In this document: positions 5,667-22,999 of the stretch, piece after piece
How positions within the stretch are numbered: position 1 is the stretch's first letter
Layout: each line of letters begins with the position of its first letter
NCBI GenBank assembly: GCA_024690635.1
Contig: JAILOW010000184.1
Location: 1 to 23,274 of the forward strand
DNA length: 23,274 nucleotides
Origin: Butyrivibrio sp.
GTDB taxonomy: Bacteria > Bacillota_A > Clostridia > Lachnospirales > Lachnospiraceae
Direction of reading: 5' to 3'
Program-made: the position numbers and the translations under genes
The notes under the pieces: generated by a model
What the model was told of the DNA's origin: nothing
What the model saw: only the letters and a program-made list of their open reading frames with translations
The model's database searches: none

Positions 5667-7077
5667 AATACGCTCTTATCCCATACTGGTACTCACTGTG
5701 TTCTACGTGGGTATCTTTGTTGTGATGCTTGGATATATCGGCATTTATTCCTATAAAAACAGACAGGTTCTGATGAACAACAATTACAACACACGTCAGC
5801 AGATCCTGACGACTCAGAACAAAAGAGGAAATATCTACGCGGGAGACGGCACGGTCCTTGCCTATTCCGAGGAGGATGCCAACGGGGATGAGGTAAGAGT
5901 CTATCCTTATGGAAGAGAGTTTGCCCATGTTCTGGGCTATGCCACCAACGGAAGAAGCGGTCTTGAGGCATCCGAGAACTATTACCTCATAAAATGCAGT
6001 ATGGATCTGTCTGAAAAGGCGGAATATGAGCAAAGAGGGGAGAAATACCCTGCGGACAGTCTTTATACCACGCTGGATATCGGACTTCAGGAGGTTGCAT
6101 ACAAGGCCCTTGCAGCCAGAAAGGGAGCTGTTGTTGTAACAGATCCCAAAACAGGGCAGATACTTGCTATGGTTTCAAAACCCGATTACGACCCCGGCAC
6201 CATTAAACAGGACTGGGAGGATCTGGTAAAAGATACTCATGGTGAAGCTAAACTTCTAAACCGCGCAACCCAGGGCCTTTATCCGCCGGGATCAACCTTC
6301 AAGATCGTTACGGCACTTGCTTATTTAAAAGAGCATGAGGGAGACTACCAAAACTACAGATATACCTGCTCGGGGAAGTTTAAAGACGGAGAAGATGTGA
6401 TCTCATGCTTCCACGGGGAGAGCCACGGAAGTCTGGACCTTTACAGCTCTTTTGCCAAATCCTGTAATTCATCCTTTGCAAATATAGGGGTTGATATAGA
6501 CAGAAAGGTCTTTGCGGATACCTTAAAAGAGCTGATGTTCAACCAGGAGCAGCCTCTTGATATTGCCTACAAAAAAAGTAAGGCTACCATTTCGGCGGAA
6601 AGCACAACAGCTGACGTGATGCAGCTTGCCATAGGGCAGGGTACTACAGGCGTTACGCCCATGCATATCAATATGATAACCTGCGCGGCAGCCAACGACG
6701 GCCTTCTGATGAAACCCTATCTGGTAAAAGCGGTTAAGAGCCTTGACGGCAAGGTGGTATTAAAGAATGAACCCGAATCCTACAAAAAACTCATGACAGC
6801 AGAGCAGTCGAGGATATTAAGAGAGATGATGGAGCAGGTGGTACAAAACGGAACGGCCACCAATTTAAAAGGCCTTTCCTACACTTCTGCAGGAAAGACC
6901 GGTTCTGCTGAGTTTAACACCGCCACATCGGATTCACATGCCTGGTTTACGGGATATGCTCCCGCAGATGATCCCAGGATCTGCGTTACCATAATAGTTG
7001 AAAACGCAGGAACCGGCGGAAGCTATGCGGTACCCATTGCCAAGAGAATATTTGATGCATATTTCGGCGTTGAATAA
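5614..7077 (+). CDS. Penicillin-binding protein 2-like transpeptidase (class B, PbpA-like)
   Basis: This is a membrane-anchored D,D-transpeptidase that cross-links peptidoglycan made by the adjacent SEDS enzyme. It has one N-terminal transmembrane helix (about residues 24-45) and a short extracytoplasmic N-terminal region, then the transpeptidase fold. The active-site motifs are STFK (S227-K230), SCN (S283-N285) and KTGS (K428-S431), numbered from the ATG at 5614. At 487 residues it is shorter than typical PBP2 or FtsI and matches the compact PbpA type. The start is uncertain. The ATG at 5614 has no ribosome binding site, whereas an in-frame TTG at 5632 lies 10 nt after AGAGG. Either start overlaps the SEDS gene, which implies translational coupling. 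Only 13 nt separate its stop from the convergent HD-GYP gene, with no evident terminator. Confidence 0.93.
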   Translation: MRGMKLLNENEKSSRKNKIRSYPILVLTVFYVGIFVVMLGYIGIYSYKNRQVLMNNNYNTRQQILTTQNKRGNIYAGDGTVLAYSEEDANGDEVRVYPYGREFAHVLGYATNGRSGLEASENYYLIKCSMDLSEKAEYEQRGEKYPADSLYTTLDIGLQEVAYKALAARKGAVVVTDPKTGQILAMVSKPDYDPGTIKQDWEDLVKDTHGEAKLLNRATQGLYPPGSTFKIVTALAYLKEHEGDYQNYRYTCSGKFKDGEDVISCFHGESHGSLDLYSSFAKSCNSSFANIGVDIDRKVFADTLKELMFNQEQPLDIAYKKSKATISAESTTADVMQLAIGQGTTGVTPMHINMITCAAANDGLLMKPYLVKAVKSLDGKVVLKNEPESYKKLMTAEQSRILREMMEQVVQNGTATNLKGLSYTSAGKTGSAEFNTATSDSHAWFTGYAPADDPRICVTIIVENAGTGGSYAVPIAKRIFDAYFGVE

Positions 7078-7090
7078 TAGTTTATTAAAA

Positions 7091-8152
7091 TCAGAATACT
7101 GCTACGATGGACAACTGTTTGTTGGTGGAAAGATCAAGTAAAGTGTTGTCACCAAGTTTGATGAGAGGGCGTGAGAGCGCCTTCTCATTTATTAATATGA
7201 CTTCTCCGATCTGTCCGCTGGAGAGCTGAACGTTAAAGCCAAGCTGAGAGTTGGCGATGTGGGACAGAATGGATTTAATGGCTGCGTAGTCGTATTTTAC
7301 GAAGCCTTCGTTTTCATAGTTTGCAATGATCTGGAAGGGATTGAGTTTTTGCCTGTAGGAACGGGGCGATGTCATGGCCTCGTAGGTATCGATAATGGCG
7401 ATATATTTGGCAAATTTATCAATCTCTGTGTCTGTAAGGGATCTGGGATAGCCTGATCCGTCGCATCTTTCGTGGTGCTGTGCCGCTGCGTTTAAAACGT
7501 GCTCATCAAAGGTTCCGAGGCTCTTTAAAAAGTCATAGCCGATGGTGGTGTGGCGCATGACCATTCTGTACTCCTCGGAAGTAAGGCGCTCGGGCTTCCA
7601 AAGGATCTGATAGGGAATGCTGAGCTTACCTATGTCATAGACAAAAGCGCACTGTATCAGAAGTGATATATCCTCGTTGGAAAGACCAAGCCATGTGCCG
7701 AACACGCCCGCGATAAGAGCGGAGTTCAGGCAGTGGGCATGAGTCATGTCATCCTCACCGGGGAGCATATTGTATAAATAATCAAGAAGAAGCTCGCCGC
7801 TTTTGGCGCATACGATAATATTGCGGTAAACCTCCATGAGCTGTTCCATCTTAATGGGAGTTCTGTTGTTTACCGAGCTTATTACGAGATTTTTATATAC
7901 GGGAAAATAGATGTTATAAGTTGATTCAAAGGTCTTGAAACCTTCGCTCAGACGCACTTTCTCAAAGTGTGTGGTGGCAAAATCGATGTCCTCTTTGATA
8001 GGCACCACCATGATGGATTGTCTGGCAAGTTTTTCTATGATGGTGTCGGTGATCTTGGTATTTGCGGTGACTATGATCTCATTCTTGTAATTAAGAATGT
8101 CGTCCGCAGTAACCATCCCCGGTTTGAGCTCCATCCTCGCAACTGCTTTCAT
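7091..8152 (-). CDS. HD-GYP domain protein with degenerate HD motif
   Basis: HD-GYP proteins usually hydrolyse cyclic di-GMP in the cytoplasm. The 353-residue product has an N-terminal region of about 110 residues without a recognised sensor, the HD-GYP domain at about 120-300 and a short C-terminal tail. The GYP motif is intact (HHERCDGSGYP, residues 226-236), as is the KPERLTSEEYRMVMRH segment. However, the HD motif reads VYDIGKLSIP, so the metal-binding histidine is Tyr172 (codon TAT, one transition from CAT). Catalysis may therefore be weak or lost. The start at 8152 is chosen because GGAGG lies 9 nt upstream. A longer frame to 8206 lacks such a site. It is a single-gene unit with its own promoter, convergent with the penicillin-binding protein gene. 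Confidence 0.9.
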   Translation of the reverse strand: MKAVARMELKPGMVTADDILNYKNEIIVTANTKITDTIIEKLARQSIMVVPIKEDIDFATTHFEKVRLSEGFKTFESTYNIYFPVYKNLVISSVNNRTPIKMEQLMEVYRNIIVCAKSGELLLDYLYNMLPGEDDMTHAHCLNSALIAGVFGTWLGLSNEDISLLIQCAFVYDIGKLSIPYQILWKPERLTSEEYRMVMRHTTIGYDFLKSLGTFDEHVLNAAAQHHERCDGSGYPRSLTDTEIDKFAKYIAIIDTYEAMTSPRSYRQKLNPFQIIANYENEGFVKYDYAAIKSILSHIANSQLGFNVQLSSGQIGEVILINEKALSRPLIKLGDNTLLDLSTNKQLSIVAVF

Positions 8153-18930: not shown

Positions 18931-19746
18931 TTACCAGCCCATATCCTGCAGGAAGCCTTTAAGGCGCTGATGGCGCAGCTTTGCCTCCTCCAGAGTGGGA
19001 TTTGACTCATCCTTATAGTCACCTGCGTAGGGGCCAAGGTCTATCTCGTCACTGATGACGCCGTCTGCAAGGTAAATGATCCTGTTACCTCTTTCCGCGG
19101 CCTTTATTGTATGGGTTACCATGACGATGCTCTGGCCTTCATTATTAAGGTCTGAAAGGATGTTCAGGACGTTTTCCGTGTTCTGTGAATTCAACGCTCC
19201 TGTGGGCTCGTCTGCAAAAAGAACCTCAGGGCTGTTGATAACGCCCCTTACAACGGCAACTCTTTGCTGTTGACCGCCGGACATCTGGGTCGGGAATTTC
19301 CTGTAGTCGGCTTCACCGATCTCAACGTTATTAAGAAGCCTTTTTGCTTTTTCGGAAAGGGCCTTTCTGTCTGTGTTTTTCAAAAGACCGCAGACCATAA
19401 CGTTATCAAGAGCGCTCATGCTGTCGTTAAGGTAGTTTTGCTGAAAAACAAAACCCACATGGTCGCGCCTGAACATAGCAAGCTTGTCATTGTTGTAGGT
19501 GGAGATTTCGGTTTCGGCTGAGCCTTCCGTATAGTAGGTGATGGTGCCCATGCTGGGCCTGTCCATGCCTGAAAGAGCGTATAGGAGAGTACTCTTGCCG
19601 GAGCCGGAGTTACCCATTATTACCGTGAAATCTCCTTTATATATAGACAGATTCAGGTTTTTTAACACGTGCTGCTGCACGGAACCGTTTGAAAATGTCT
19701 TTGAAAGATCTTTTGCACTTAGTATTCTTTTCTTTTCGGATATCAT
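18931..19746 (-). CDS. ABC transporter ATP-binding protein (MacB/LolD/YknY type)
   Basis: The cytoplasmic ATPase of 271 residues powers the adjacent permease. Motifs in order are Walker A GNSGSGKST (residues 45-53), the Q-loop in GFVFQQNYLNDSMSALDNV, signature MSGGQQQRVAVVRG (first position Met rather than the usual Leu), Walker B EVLFADEPTGALNSQ, and the H-loop in IVMVTHTIKAA. The start at 19746 shares one base with the stop of the upstream HlyD-type gene (TAATG) and is served by AAGGTG 8 nt upstream. A longer frame to 19812 would be read from inside the HlyD coding sequence and is rejected. The tail beyond the ATPase core (about 40 residues, LEEAKLRHQRLKGFLQDMGW) is typical of this class. 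Confidence 0.94.
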   Translation of the reverse strand: MISEKKRILSAKDLSKTFSNGSVQQHVLKNLNLSIYKGDFTVIMGNSGSGKSTLLYALSGMDRPSMGTITYYTEGSAETEISTYNNDKLAMFRRDHVGFVFQQNYLNDSMSALDNVMVCGLLKNTDRKALSEKAKRLLNNVEIGEADYRKFPTQMSGGQQQRVAVVRGVINSPEVLFADEPTGALNSQNTENVLNILSDLNNEGQSIVMVTHTIKAAERGNRIIYLADGVISDEIDLGPYAGDYKDESNPTLEEAKLRHQRLKGFLQDMGW

Positions 19747-21131
19747 TATCTGTTCACCTTTACGCCCATTCCGTCTGTGATCTCCTGAGAGTCTTTCCAT
19801 ACAACCAGGCATCCTTCGGAGAGACCTGACCTGATCTCAACCATGTCATCATTTCTGATGCCGCACTCAACAAACTCTTTTTCGGCTACGCCGTCTTTTG
19901 CGATAAAGACATAGCTTCCTTCCTCATCTTCGCTGAGGGCCTCCAAAGGAATGCGGAGAACATCGGAGAGATTTGCAGTATGGATCCTGGCCTTTGCTTC
20001 AAGCCCAAGGATAATGTCATCGCCGGGCTCATCGAGCTTGATCTCAACGCCTATGCCGCTTCCTGAGCCTGAGTCCTTGGTCATACGCTCAATTCTTGAC
20101 ACCTTTCCGGCATAGTCCTTGTTCTTGATCTTTACCGTGGCGGGCTGACCTTCCTCAACATTCACTATATCATACTTATTTACTGTCGTTTTTACAACAA
20201 TATCAGAGGTGGATTTCAGGGTAAAGAGCTGAGAACCTGCCTGAATATTGCTGCCTTCGATCACATCAAGTGTTGTTACGATTCCGTCAAACTCAGCCTT
20301 TATGCCTTCTTTTGCACTTGCAAAGTCTTCAGCCTTTACATTGTTTGAGATATCGTTTGCTTCCTTTACGGCTTCGAGCTGCTCTTTGGCGCCTTCAGTC
20401 ATGAGATTCATAACGGTGCTTGCCTTCTGGCTTGTCATCTCTGCCTTGTATTCCTTGTAGTTTGCAAGCTGAACATTGAGAGAATTAAGCTCTTCCTGAA
20501 GCTGAACTATGTCGTCGTCGTACTGCTGCTCGTAGGCATTGGTCTGAACCAGCTTTTGAAGGTTTTCGTACTCCTCGGAGTCAGGCTTGTCAGCCCAGTC
20601 GATAAGAGATATCTGAAGCTTTGCGCCAAAGTCTGCAAGAGAAGACTTTCTTTCTGTGAGCTTGTTCTGTGTTCTTGTGATGGCATCCTGTGTATCTGCG
20701 ATCTGCTGATCAAGAACAGCAAGGTTTTTCTTTGCCTCTCCGTAAAGGCCCGCTGTGCGGTTTCCTGTCTGAATGGAGTTGTTGTAGCTTCCAAGATCTG
20801 CCTTGGCATCAAGATCCGCAAGGGCTTCAAGTCTTGCAAGCTCCTCGGCGTCGTAGGAGATGATCACATCGCCCTTTTTTACAAAGTCGCCTTCCTTTAT
20901 ATGAACCTTACCGATCCTGGCGTTTATTTTTGAATAGTAAACCTTGTCCAGGTTACTTTCAACGTTTCCGTTTACCTCGATCTCGCTGTCAAGAGCGCCC
21001 TTATCAACTGTATAGGCATCAACAGATGTGGCTGCTCCTGCGCTTATTGAAACTCCTCCGATTGCCGCTACGGCAACCACAAGCCCTGCGGCTATTGCAA
21101 CTTTCTTTTTGTCTTTTAACAGATTCATCAT
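19746..21131 (-). CDS. HlyD/MacA-type membrane fusion (adaptor) protein
   Basis: The 461-residue protein is anchored by an N-terminal signal or transmembrane helix (about residues 10-34, VAIAAGLVVAVAAIGGVSIS) and is otherwise extracytoplasmic. The first lipoyl half (ARIGKVHIKEGDFVKKGDVI) is followed by a long alpha-helical hairpin of about 150 residues and the second lipoyl half (AEFDGIVTTLDVIEGSNIQA). Beta-barrel and membrane-proximal domains end the protein (RIPLEALSEDEEGSYVFIAK). It resembles MacA and B. subtilis YknX, which work with a LolD-type ATPase and an FtsX-type permease. It is the first gene of the five-gene operon, with ribosome binding site AGAGGGG. Two consecutive ATG codons are both usable starts. 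Confidence 0.92.
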   Translation of the reverse strand: MMNLLKDKKKVAIAAGLVVAVAAIGGVSISAGAATSVDAYTVDKGALDSEIEVNGNVESNLDKVYYSKINARIGKVHIKEGDFVKKGDVIISYDAEELARLEALADLDAKADLGSYNNSIQTGNRTAGLYGEAKKNLAVLDQQIADTQDAITRTQNKLTERKSSLADFGAKLQISLIDWADKPDSEEYENLQKLVQTNAYEQQYDDDIVQLQEELNSLNVQLANYKEYKAEMTSQKASTVMNLMTEGAKEQLEAVKEANDISNNVKAEDFASAKEGIKAEFDGIVTTLDVIEGSNIQAGSQLFTLKSTSDIVVKTTVNKYDIVNVEEGQPATVKIKNKDYAGKVSRIERMTKDSGSGSGIGVEIKLDEPGDDIILGLEAKARIHTANLSDVLRIPLEALSEDEEGSYVFIAKDGVAEKEFVECGIRNDDMVEIRSGLSEGCLVVWKDSQEITDGMGVKVNR

Positions 21132-21234: not shown

Positions 21235-21256
21235 ATTATTAATTGATTCTTAATTG
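21235..21256 (-). promoter_or_regulatory. Tandem 11-bp direct repeat upstream of the efflux operon (candidate regulator site)
   Basis: Read on the minus strand, CAATTAAGAAT and CAATTAATAAT lie head to tail with one mismatch. OmpR/PhoB-type regulators typically bind two direct half-sites about 10-11 bp apart. The repeat lies about 105 bp upstream of the HlyD-type start codon. No convincing sigma-A promoter was found between them, as might be expected for an activator-dependent promoter. Confidence 0.45.
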
Positions 21257-21333
21257 GGGGTGAGCCTGGGGGACGGGGTTAGGGGGTCATTTGAGGGGGG
21301 GTGAGCCTGGGGGACGGAGTTAGCGGGTCATTT
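21256..21333 (+). repeat. Two G-rich 37-bp direct repeats with a G-quadruplex motif
   Basis: Copies at 21256-21292 and 21297-21333 differ at only two positions and start 41 bp apart. Copy 1 contains GGGGG-N7-GGGGG-N2-GGGG-N3-GGGGG (21256-21286), which meets the usual four-tract G-quadruplex rule with loops of 7 nt or less. Copy 2 has its last tracts broken. The block lies between the efflux operon upstream region and the 53-bp array. Confidence 0.85.
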
Positions 21334-21335
21334 TA

Positions 21336-21739
21336 CTGCCTATATTGTGAATTGGGTGAAAAGGGCAGGCGGATTTTGGAAGATTATACTGCCTAAATTG
21401 AGAATTCTGCGAAACGGGCAGTAGGGCTCGGCGCTAGCATACTGCCTAAATTTAGAATTTGTGAATATAGGCAGTCAGGCTCAGGGTAAATATACTGCCC
21501 ATATTTCAAATTTGCGAATATAGGCAGGTGATGCTTGAATTGGGAATCTGCCTAAATCTCGAAAATGAAAAAATAGGCAGTTGAATTTTGGGAGATTGTA
21601 CTGCCTAAACTGTGAATTATGCGAAATAGGCAGGTGATGCTTGAATTGGGAATCTGCCTAAATCTCGAAAATGAAAAAATAGGCAGTAGAATTTGAGATA
21701 ATCGAACTGCCTAAAACGTGAATTCTGCGAAATAGGCAG
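21336..21739 (+). repeat. Tandem array of eight 33-bp quasi-palindromic units at an exact 53-bp period
   Basis: Units start at 21336, 21389, 21442, 21495, 21548, 21601, 21654 and 21707. Each is exactly 33 nt, begins with CTGCC and ends with GGCAG, and all seven intervening spacers are exactly 20 nt. The usual form is CTGCCTA-N19-TAGGCAG, with an interior resembling AATTGTGAATTNTGCGAAA, and a GAATTC near the centre of units 2 and 8. Unit interiors differ between copies. Spacers are mostly distinct, but spacers 4 and 6 and units 5 and 7 are identical, showing a duplication shifted by 106 bp (21520-21581 and 21626-21687). Most units could fold as hairpins with 5-7 bp stems. No gene overlaps the array convincingly. 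Its function is unknown. Confidence 0.95.
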
Positions 21740-22113
21740 TTTCACAGAAAAATCAACTGCCCTATTTCGATAAAATTCAAATAAAGTATGTTTTAGAAGA
21801 ATATGTTCCAATTTTGGACTTGGTGCGTGAACTAGATAAATGGAATGAATCACTAAAAGAATATTAAGAAAAGCAAAGTTTTTCTTTTGCGAGCTGTAAA
21901 AATGATAAAATTACATGGTCGGATGTAGAAGGCGTATACTCTAATCTGTCAAAAAGAATATATTATACAAGAAATTCGTTAGTGCATTCCAAAAGCGGTC
22001 AGATTGAAAAACAGTACAAAACACAAAAACATAAGTCAAATTTAGCTAGGGAATTGCAGTTAATTCAGATTATAGCGGAATTGATTATATTTAAAACTGG
22101 AAAGGCATTATAG
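21740..22113 (+). pseudogene. Remnant of a HEPN-like protein gene, 5' end lost, one in-frame stop
   Basis: A single frame reads as protein from just after the last array unit to a TAG at 22111-22113, broken once by TAA at 21865-21867. The first part reads LPYFDKIQIKYVLEEYVPIL and then DLVRELDKWNESLKEY. The second part includes DKITWSDVEGVYSNLSKRIY, then YTRNSLVHSKSG and ARELQLIQIIAELIIFKTGK. R-N-S-L-V-H (codons at 21970-21987) fits the R-x4-6-H motif of HEPN RNases and HEPN-like helical proteins, many of which act in phage defence or toxin systems. No start codon or 5' half is present; an in-frame TAG at 21733 lies in array unit 8. The stretch is clearly more AT-rich than its neighbours, which suggests acquired DNA. 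The family call rests on motif and helical pattern only. Confidence 0.6.
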
Positions 22114-22209: not shown

Positions 22210-22905
22210 ATGGCTTCATGGATGGTTCATTTAAGAATTGCGGATAAACTTCTTGAAAGGATACCGGATCTTGACGAATCTGCATTTATATTGGGAAATA
22301 TTGCGCCTGACAGTGGCGTACCGAATGAAGACTGGTCGGTGTTCAATCCCCCGGGGAATGTGACTCACTACAGAACTAACCCCGCTGACAAGACCTTTAT
22401 TGATGTTGAAAAGTATGTGCAAGAATATTTTTCAAAAGAAAAGATAGAAAACTATAGCCAAAGGGAGTATTCCTTCTTTCTTGGATACTACACGCATCTT
22501 TTGACAGATATCGAATGGACGAAGATGGTTCATAGTGAGGGCGTTAATGAGGAAAACGCGCAGAAAGAAGGTATGTCTTTATCCGATTTTATCTGGAAGA
22601 ATAAAGAAGACTGGTATGATCTGGACTTCCTGTATCTTGAGCAGCACCCTGACTTCAGGGCTTTTCTTGTTTATGAAAATGCCGAGGATATCACCAATGT
22701 GTTTATGAAGGAATTTGCCGAGGATGCCTTTGAAAACAGGCGTGAGTACATTTGCGGATATTATCGGAGCGACAACCACGGCGACCTGCATAGGGGGTAC
22801 AAGTACCTTACGAAGGAAAGGTCAGACAGGTTTGTGGAGGAAACTTCGGAAAAGATAATGACTTCATATAATGCCAGTGTTCGACAATTTAGGCATAGAC
22901 ACTAG
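22210..22905 (+). CDS. Zinc-dependent phospholipase C family protein
   Basis: The 231-residue protein resembles the bacterial zinc-dependent phospholipase C/S1-P1 nuclease-like family. Likely metal ligands sit in the expected order: H7 (SWMVHLRIADKLLE), D34 (FILGNIAPDSG), H53 (VTHYR), and H96 with D100 (FFLGYYTHLLTDIEW). There is no signal peptide, so unlike secreted clostridial phospholipases it probably acts in the cytoplasm. Members of this short class are common in Firmicutes and their substrates are mostly unknown. The ATG is well supported by AAGGAGG ending 9 nt upstream. It is a lone gene followed by a bidirectional terminator. The upstream 96 bp is AT-rich, with no clear promoter match. 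Confidence 0.8.
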   Translation: MASWMVHLRIADKLLERIPDLDESAFILGNIAPDSGVPNEDWSVFNPPGNVTHYRTNPADKTFIDVEKYVQEYFSKEKIENYSQREYSFFLGYYTHLLTDIEWTKMVHSEGVNEENAQKEGMSLSDFIWKNKEDWYDLDFLYLEQHPDFRAFLVYENAEDITNVFMKEFAEDAFENRREYICGYYRSDNHGDLHRGYKYLTKERSDRFVEETSEKIMTSYNASVRQFRHRH

Positions 22906-22999
22906 AAGAGCGTGCTGCAGAATATGGAGGACAACTTTCTTTGGACGGTGATACTGAAATGGCGTGAACCGATAGGAAAAGAGATTTGGACATAAGAAA

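Follow-up and report, generated by a model that had tools for sequence, protein, structure and literature searches.

The DNA analysed here is a stretch of 23,274 bp from Butyrivibrio sp. (contig JAILOW010000184.1, hereafter the window), which carries at positions 21336..21739 an array of short inverted units, and the question raised by this locus is why the lengths of its units and spacers are kept so strictly. Comparison with other genomes found many arrays of the same geometry, often beside a gene family of ~267 amino acids (aa) with a PD-(D/E)xK-like domain. A link between the clade of this putative nuclease, the core sequence of the array half-sites and a spacing in whole helical turns is the firm part of our results, at the level of sequence comparison. 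We consider it probable that such a nuclease uses arrays of this kind as phased binding platforms on double-stranded DNA, and that the window holds a solo copy of one, dispersed non-autonomously by the nuclease acting in trans.

Geometry of the array in the window and in other genomes

An earlier note on this DNA, made from the letters alone, described eight units of 33 nucleotides with invariant ends. Inspection letter by letter confirmed that all eight units are exactly 33 bp and all seven spacers exactly 20 bp, giving a period of 53 bp, and that 16/16 five-base unit ends are CTGCC or GGCAG. The pattern CTGCY-N23-RGCAG has 8 matches in the window, every one inside the array, against a mean of 0.08 and a maximum of 1 in 100 shuffles of the window. 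Spacers 4 and 6 are identical, as are units 5 and 7, which suggests that the array grew in part by a recent duplication of 106 bp; Tandem Repeats Finder also gives a period of 106 bp.

A scan of the genome collection with spacers of 14-26 allowed returned 98 stretches; the spacer was exactly 20 in 14 of those from Lachnospiraceae, and the same was seen in two GC-rich genomes of other groups. When spacers of 10-40 were allowed in 13 genomes pre-selected from the scan matches, the sole exception to 20 was one spacer of 19. The scan was extended to 79 Butyrivibrio genomes with spacers of 10-40 and second-unit interiors of 13-33 permitted, and among the matches listed the length was 86 or 87 bp, corresponding to a spacer of 20 and an interior of 23 or 24, except for two matches in genome G006 which both span a run of N. 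This wide-gap pattern matched in 21/79 genomes and its reversed control once (G068). The pattern CTGCY-N23/24-RGCAG-N20 was found in 35 of the 79 genomes, with no match for the reversed control, and the richest genome has up to 32 CTGCY/RGCAG matches per strand. The strict form CTGCC-N23-GGCAG put forward in the earlier note holds in the window but not in the relatives, where the ends are CTGCY/RGCAG and the units 33 or 34 bp; its view that length is held more strictly than sequence was borne out, the geometry being kept across the genus and the sequence diverged.

A chain parser identified 67 distinct CTGCY arrays, and none in 1.23 Mb of shuffled sequence. The gaps were 20 in 288/300 cases and 23 or 24 in 353/354, the parser having admitted only values near 20 and near 23/24. 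The first end is CTGCY in 61 and the last end RGCAG in 60 of the 67 arrays, and the unit number is most often 5 to 7 (45/67). Judged by sequence, the window array belongs to a family of DNA arrays with rigid spacing of which copies are dispersed. The CTGCC-N23-GGCAG-N20 geometry was also seen in a tandem repeat with nearly identical units in a Lachnospiraceae genome of 58% G+C (L054, 711-902), which may be a further member. At L126 and L062 a sequence, AAAATGGACCCCAAGAAG, which resembles the end of an insertion sequence, cuts into the array at its edge.

A gene family beside the arrays, its cores and periods

Comparison of the open reading frames (ORFs) in the flanks of 31 array loci revealed one recurring family of ~267 aa, whose start lies close beside the arrays. 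It has no significant match in Pfam or NCBIfam, and PHROGs likewise gave no usable name; in all 106 aligned members the last 110 residues match the C-terminal part of the PADLOC PDC-S68 models. Residues E164, P194-D195 and E210-H211 are invariant in 106/106 members. A structure model shows the order of a PD-(D/E)xK domain, with which the fold matches agree, and the usual lysine is replaced by histidine. The C-terminal domain is accordingly described here as PD-(D/E)xK-like and the protein as a putative nuclease. Fold search of the N-terminal half matched long helical hairpins only; for an integrase-like arm-binding reading of this region there was no match among those listed. The family is present in 68/79 Butyrivibrio genomes, with up to nine copies per genome, in 123/397 sampled Lachnospiraceae genomes and, by profile search of the class Clostridia, in 32/391 genomes. 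The database holds 2,584 relatives at E 1e-5, and among the matches listed (120 of 2,584) the named ones read only hypothetical or uncharacterized.

At the 30 closest nuclease loci a CTGCY array was found at 19, always on the 5′ side, and L198 has a 3′ array as well. A core-blind scan, which looks for alternating inverted 5-mers with constant gaps and uses no prior core sequence, was applied to 90 of the roughly 150 loci from the Butyrivibrio search and found arrays at 59: 35 upstream and 2 downstream in subfamily A (50 loci), and 14 upstream and 9 downstream in subfamily B (40 loci). In an independent set of 29 further Lachnospiraceae loci, 16 have an upstream array and 1 a downstream array; the corresponding numbers for a Clostridia-wide sample of 22 loci are 11 and 1, and six matches in that sample covering mainly the C-terminal part have no array. 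One strict scan over all sets, from which loci with <300 bp upstream or <150 aligned residues were left out, found arrays at 87/135 loci (89 arrays, 76 upstream and 13 downstream). Its controls gave arrays in 6/222 windows, taken around 23 loci of genomes that carry arrays and without matching for gene starts, and in 0/180 shuffled windows; the six positive windows all have near-whole-turn periods and are possibly real solo arrays. The earlier note had proposed a search for a gene family that co-occurs with the arrays, and this family answers to it.

The association extends to whole genomes. A subfamily-A nuclease is present in 26/35 genomes with CTGCY arrays versus 11/44 other genomes (p = 1.5e-5; genome lists drawn by hand from the pattern scan and the gene search). 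CTGTT-core arrays occur in 15/79 genomes, nine with and six without a nuclease of the CTGTTG clade, and no genome has that nuclease without a CTGTT array, which is partly trivial as adjacent arrays are counted. In subfamily A the leaders upstream of the gene are rich in A and poor in T. A T-poor, CAA-rich leader between array and nuclease start at L162 (leader 6290-6490, subfamily-A nuclease gene 6497-7309), similar to that at some other subfamily-A loci, is maybe an unstructured 5′ untranslated region.

The cores of subfamily A include CTGCC, CTGTTG, TATGTT, TTGACT and CCTGTC, and those of subfamily B GATGC, TATAC, TCACG, TCCGA and others. Co-segregation was examined on a tree of 90 proteins, 44 tips of which could be clearly assigned to a core class and were counted; the 11 classes were grouped by hand. 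The core changes 11 times on the tree versus 20-25 times in 300 shuffles, and within subfamily A 6 times versus 11-16; the period class changes 6 times versus 13-19. On this tree each nuclease clade has its own core. For subfamily-A pairs with a C-terminal identity of 0.55-0.85, the identity of residues 1-75 is 0.553 in same-core pairs (91) versus 0.415 in different-core pairs (484), and that of the middle part 0.599 versus 0.539, the pairs not being independent.

The periods of the 89 arrays are 52-55 bp (56 arrays), 61-66 bp (20), 74-76 bp (5), 83-85 bp (4), 94 bp (1) and 104-106 bp (3), with clusters near 53, 63, 75 and 84 bp. A whole number of 10.5-bp turns is matched within 0.15 turn by 83/89 periods, although subfamily A dominates the 52-55 group and these are not independent events. 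The three periods of 104-106 bp may be double 53-bp periods with palindromic cores. In the scan of the 29 further Lachnospiraceae loci, L346 scored a period of 53 and L364 one of 62. Within the 53-bp types the inner gap, R-N20-F, hardly varies. Because the period groups step by about 10.5 bp, they point to a platform of double-stranded DNA and are hard to explain otherwise.

Solo arrays and alternative explanations

Eighteen of the 67 CTGCY arrays have a nuclease gene no more than 1.2 kb away, 17 of them on its upstream side. A further 39, with flanks on either side long enough to judge, are solo, the remaining 10 being assigned to neither class; 6/39 solo arrays overlap an ORF of at least 100 aa. 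Arrays on different contigs of G019 share 97-98% identity over 367-429 bp, and this similarity ends ~35-40 bp outside the array; the region around two of the G019 arrays is rearranged. Whole or partial copies with common ends were found on seven contigs of one genome at unrelated sites, and near-identical copies with common ends at unrelated sites are a hallmark of non-autonomous elements. Two arrays in G017, 1.55 Mb apart, share 96% identity over 315 bp, and solo arrays are found on both the chromosome and a 302-kb replicon of this genome. The left end of the element is the break point of flank homologues in G061 and G020; the G017 homologue breaks 14 bp inside that end and the G052 homologue begins at the right end. 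Empty-site searches gave one-sided breaks only, with no clean empty site or target-site duplication. One array used as query had no match in plasmid records, and a strict two-unit pattern had none in viral contigs. A different repeat of ~135 bp, present in many copies per genome, was seen at L167 (6698-6833); G061 lacks it at the corresponding position, where a short overlap resembles a target duplication, and it is probably an ordinary miniature element.

The window array has no nuclease relative within the window (tblastn with 90 family members as queries). Its HlyD side has 74% identity to G038 and is similar in other Butyrivibrio genomes, up to ~21258, and its phospholipase side matches elsewhere in those same genomes; since the two sides match separate places, the array appears to occupy a variable site. 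The lone half-site beyond unit 8 (Table 1) is probably degenerate. Two 41-bp copies of a G-rich repeat (GGGGGTGAGCCTGGGGGACGG...) at 21256-21333 directly adjoin the array; a 74-bp span of this repeat recurs in many Butyrivibrio genomes, and a similar sequence adjoins an array in L171. A further ~120 bp at 22868-22990, with 74-80% identity to many Butyrivibrio genomes, is probably another dispersed repeat, and a remnant ORF with one in-frame stop lies at 21787-22113, its pieces having no convincing Pfam match.

Table 1. Positions of the array, its parts and the flanking genes in the window
Feature	Position	Strand
Complete array (solo), with eight CTGCC-N23-GGCAG units separated by seven 20-bp spacers	21336..21739	.
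Unit 1	21336..21368	.
Unit 2	21389..21421	.
Unit 3	21442..21474	.
Unit 4	21495..21527	.
Unit 5 (same sequence as unit 7)	21548..21580	.
Unit 6	21601..21633	.
Unit 7 (same sequence as unit 5)	21654..21686	.
Unit 8	21707..21739	.
Lone ninth CTGCC half-site, partnerless, 17 bp past unit 8	21757..21761	+
HlyD-type gene flanking the array	19746-21131	minus
Zinc-dependent phospholipase C-type gene flanking the array	22210-22905	plus

Other explanations of these arrays have to be weighed. The nuclease may be a defence or housekeeping enzyme acting on foreign DNA or RNA, with the array as a cis operator that autoregulates or tethers it and the solo arrays as immobile left-overs of lost genes. The mostly 5′ position of the arrays, the match of 106/106 members to the C-terminal part of the models of PDC-S68, a candidate defence protein, and the A-rich, T-poor leaders of subfamily A would all fit an operator. 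Against this stand the 39 solo CTGCY arrays versus 18 gene-linked ones, the finding in one genome of near-identical copies that share their ends but lie at unrelated sites, and the 9 downstream arrays among the 40 loci of subfamily B, and we regard the explanation as unlikely.

The earlier note had left open hairpins or phased binding sites, and the profile of the half-sites favours phased sites on double-stranded DNA. Across 636 half-sites the profile shows CTGCY and then a run rich in A/T that extends to about position 11, alike on both halves. Complementarity across the unit is above column expectation at positions 5, 6, 7 and 8 (z 4.7, 7.6, 2.2 and 4.0), shows no excess beyond position 8, and in the spacer falls below expectation at positions 9-13. 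The weak excess may be explained by relatedness within arrays, and there is no longer stem. An RNA system, in which the array would be transcribed into a string of hairpins and the nuclease would process these or be inhibited by them, in the manner of type III toxin-antitoxin or guide RNA, could claim the excess at positions 5, 6 and 8, and the window array folds more stably than shuffled sequence on both strands (z -7.9 and -8.5). These folding energies do not discriminate between a DNA and an RNA reading, because cores that are complementary will fold under either. The array lies ahead of the nuclease gene, as the repeats of type III toxin-antitoxin systems (ToxIN, CptIN, TenpIN) lie directly 5′ of theirs; the portion of PMC5086642 on these systems describes repeats that encode RNA pseudoknots, followed by a Rho-independent terminator. 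Here the nuclease domain is different, most arrays are solo, and scans of two loci found no terminator-like site between array end and gene start. The equal base make-up of both halves, pairing at or below expectation past position 8 and whole-turn periods across subfamilies also speak against RNA, a hairpin chain gives no reason for a strictly kept 20-base linker, and Rfam at gathering score has 0 matches in the window. An RNA system is therefore improbable.

Binding by some other host protein, for nucleoid or replicon maintenance, with the nucleases merely inserting beside the array, would suit the solo arrays on the chromosome and the 302-kb replicon of G017, but it is very unlikely, as the core shifts with the nuclease clade, so that another binder must change in step, and for any one core most of the 79 genomes have no arrays. 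A functionless tandem duplication is hardly credible despite the 106-bp duplication inside the window array, given an invariant geometry with diverged sequence in many species, cores that change while the spacing stays constant, and the linkage to a nuclease gene; the contrary case named in the earlier note, a minisatellite confined to a single strain and free to vary in unit length, is ruled out by the geometry fixed across Butyrivibrio and by arrays in 35/79 genomes.

Comparison with known systems and proposed explanation

CRISPR was ruled out, in line with the earlier note, as only the 5-bp ends are constant rather than near-identical repeats; no cas genes were found among the 19 window ORFs scanned with Pfam, save a sub-threshold HD match. 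The arrays are not REP or BIME elements either, and the organisation nevertheless resembles that of a REPtron, with another enzyme. Passages of three papers (PMC8266576, PMC3733652, PMC3116915) describe the REPtron as a gene that adjoins copies of its own short inverted repeats, with many more copies in intergenic places, repeats and enzyme that co-evolve, and several repeat-specific systems per genome. The gene found here likewise adjoins cognate inverted repeats of which further copies are dispersed. The REPtron enzyme is a HuH (Y1) tyrosine transposase, TnpA-REP or RAYT, whereas the domain here is PD-(D/E)xK-like, and no HuH or Y1 family was among the Pfam matches of the 106 members at E 0.01. 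REP is a palindrome of 20-50 nt forming a single-strand hairpin and tagged by a conserved tetranucleotide, mostly GTAG, and no such tag is present in the unit structure or half-site profile here; in contrast to REPtrons, the arrays appear as 5-8 alternating half-sites at whole-turn spacing on double-stranded DNA, and lie mostly 5′ of the gene only.

Likeness to TnsA of Tn7 and to the homing endonuclease I-Bth0305I is limited to the nuclease domain. No Tn7 partner genes were seen, none having been searched for, and the N-terminal half of the family matches only long helical hairpins; no long terminal homing-endonuclease recognition site is known for the ~267-aa family. The PDC-S68 models span ~1,200 residues, and only the last part is shared with the family. 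No description of such arrays was found in the open-access literature searched (subscription papers lay outside the search), and PMC2914790, the genome paper of B. proteoclasticus B316, had none either when searched by word. The earlier suggestion of an undescribed array of this lineage is in line with that outcome, with the correction that the window array is one of many arrays with different cores.

In the explanation that we favour, a binding platform for the nuclease, protomers would bind alternating half-sites side by side on one helix face, and the N-terminal region (residues ~1-75) would read the core, because the identity of these residues tracks the core best. The 5′ array would regulate the nuclease gene. 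We infer binding, cleavage and a nuclease-driven spread, in which the nuclease, acting in trans, would help array elements to be copied or moved to new places between genes. If it does act on them in trans, solo arrays, that of the window included, would be non-autonomous elements, a relation like that proposed between REP elements and TnpA-REP.

With confidence only a little above even, we propose that Lachnospiraceae and some other Clostridia carry a new class of mobile DNA, whose modules are made up of a PD-(D/E)xK-like nuclease and a cognate array with alternating half-sites at 5, 6, 7 or 8 whole turns. Modules that differ in core would coexist in one genome, and each nuclease would assemble on its own array and spread that array in trans. 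If this is true, the class would be a second, unrelated bacterial solution to the REP problem, with a dedicated nuclease maintaining the repeats dispersed between genes, and would clearly exemplify selection on helical phasing. It would also offer many natural nuclease-target pairs at constant geometry, and with them a code for retargeting of a small DNA-binding region. The arrays provide a first handle on a gene family with >2,500 database relatives.
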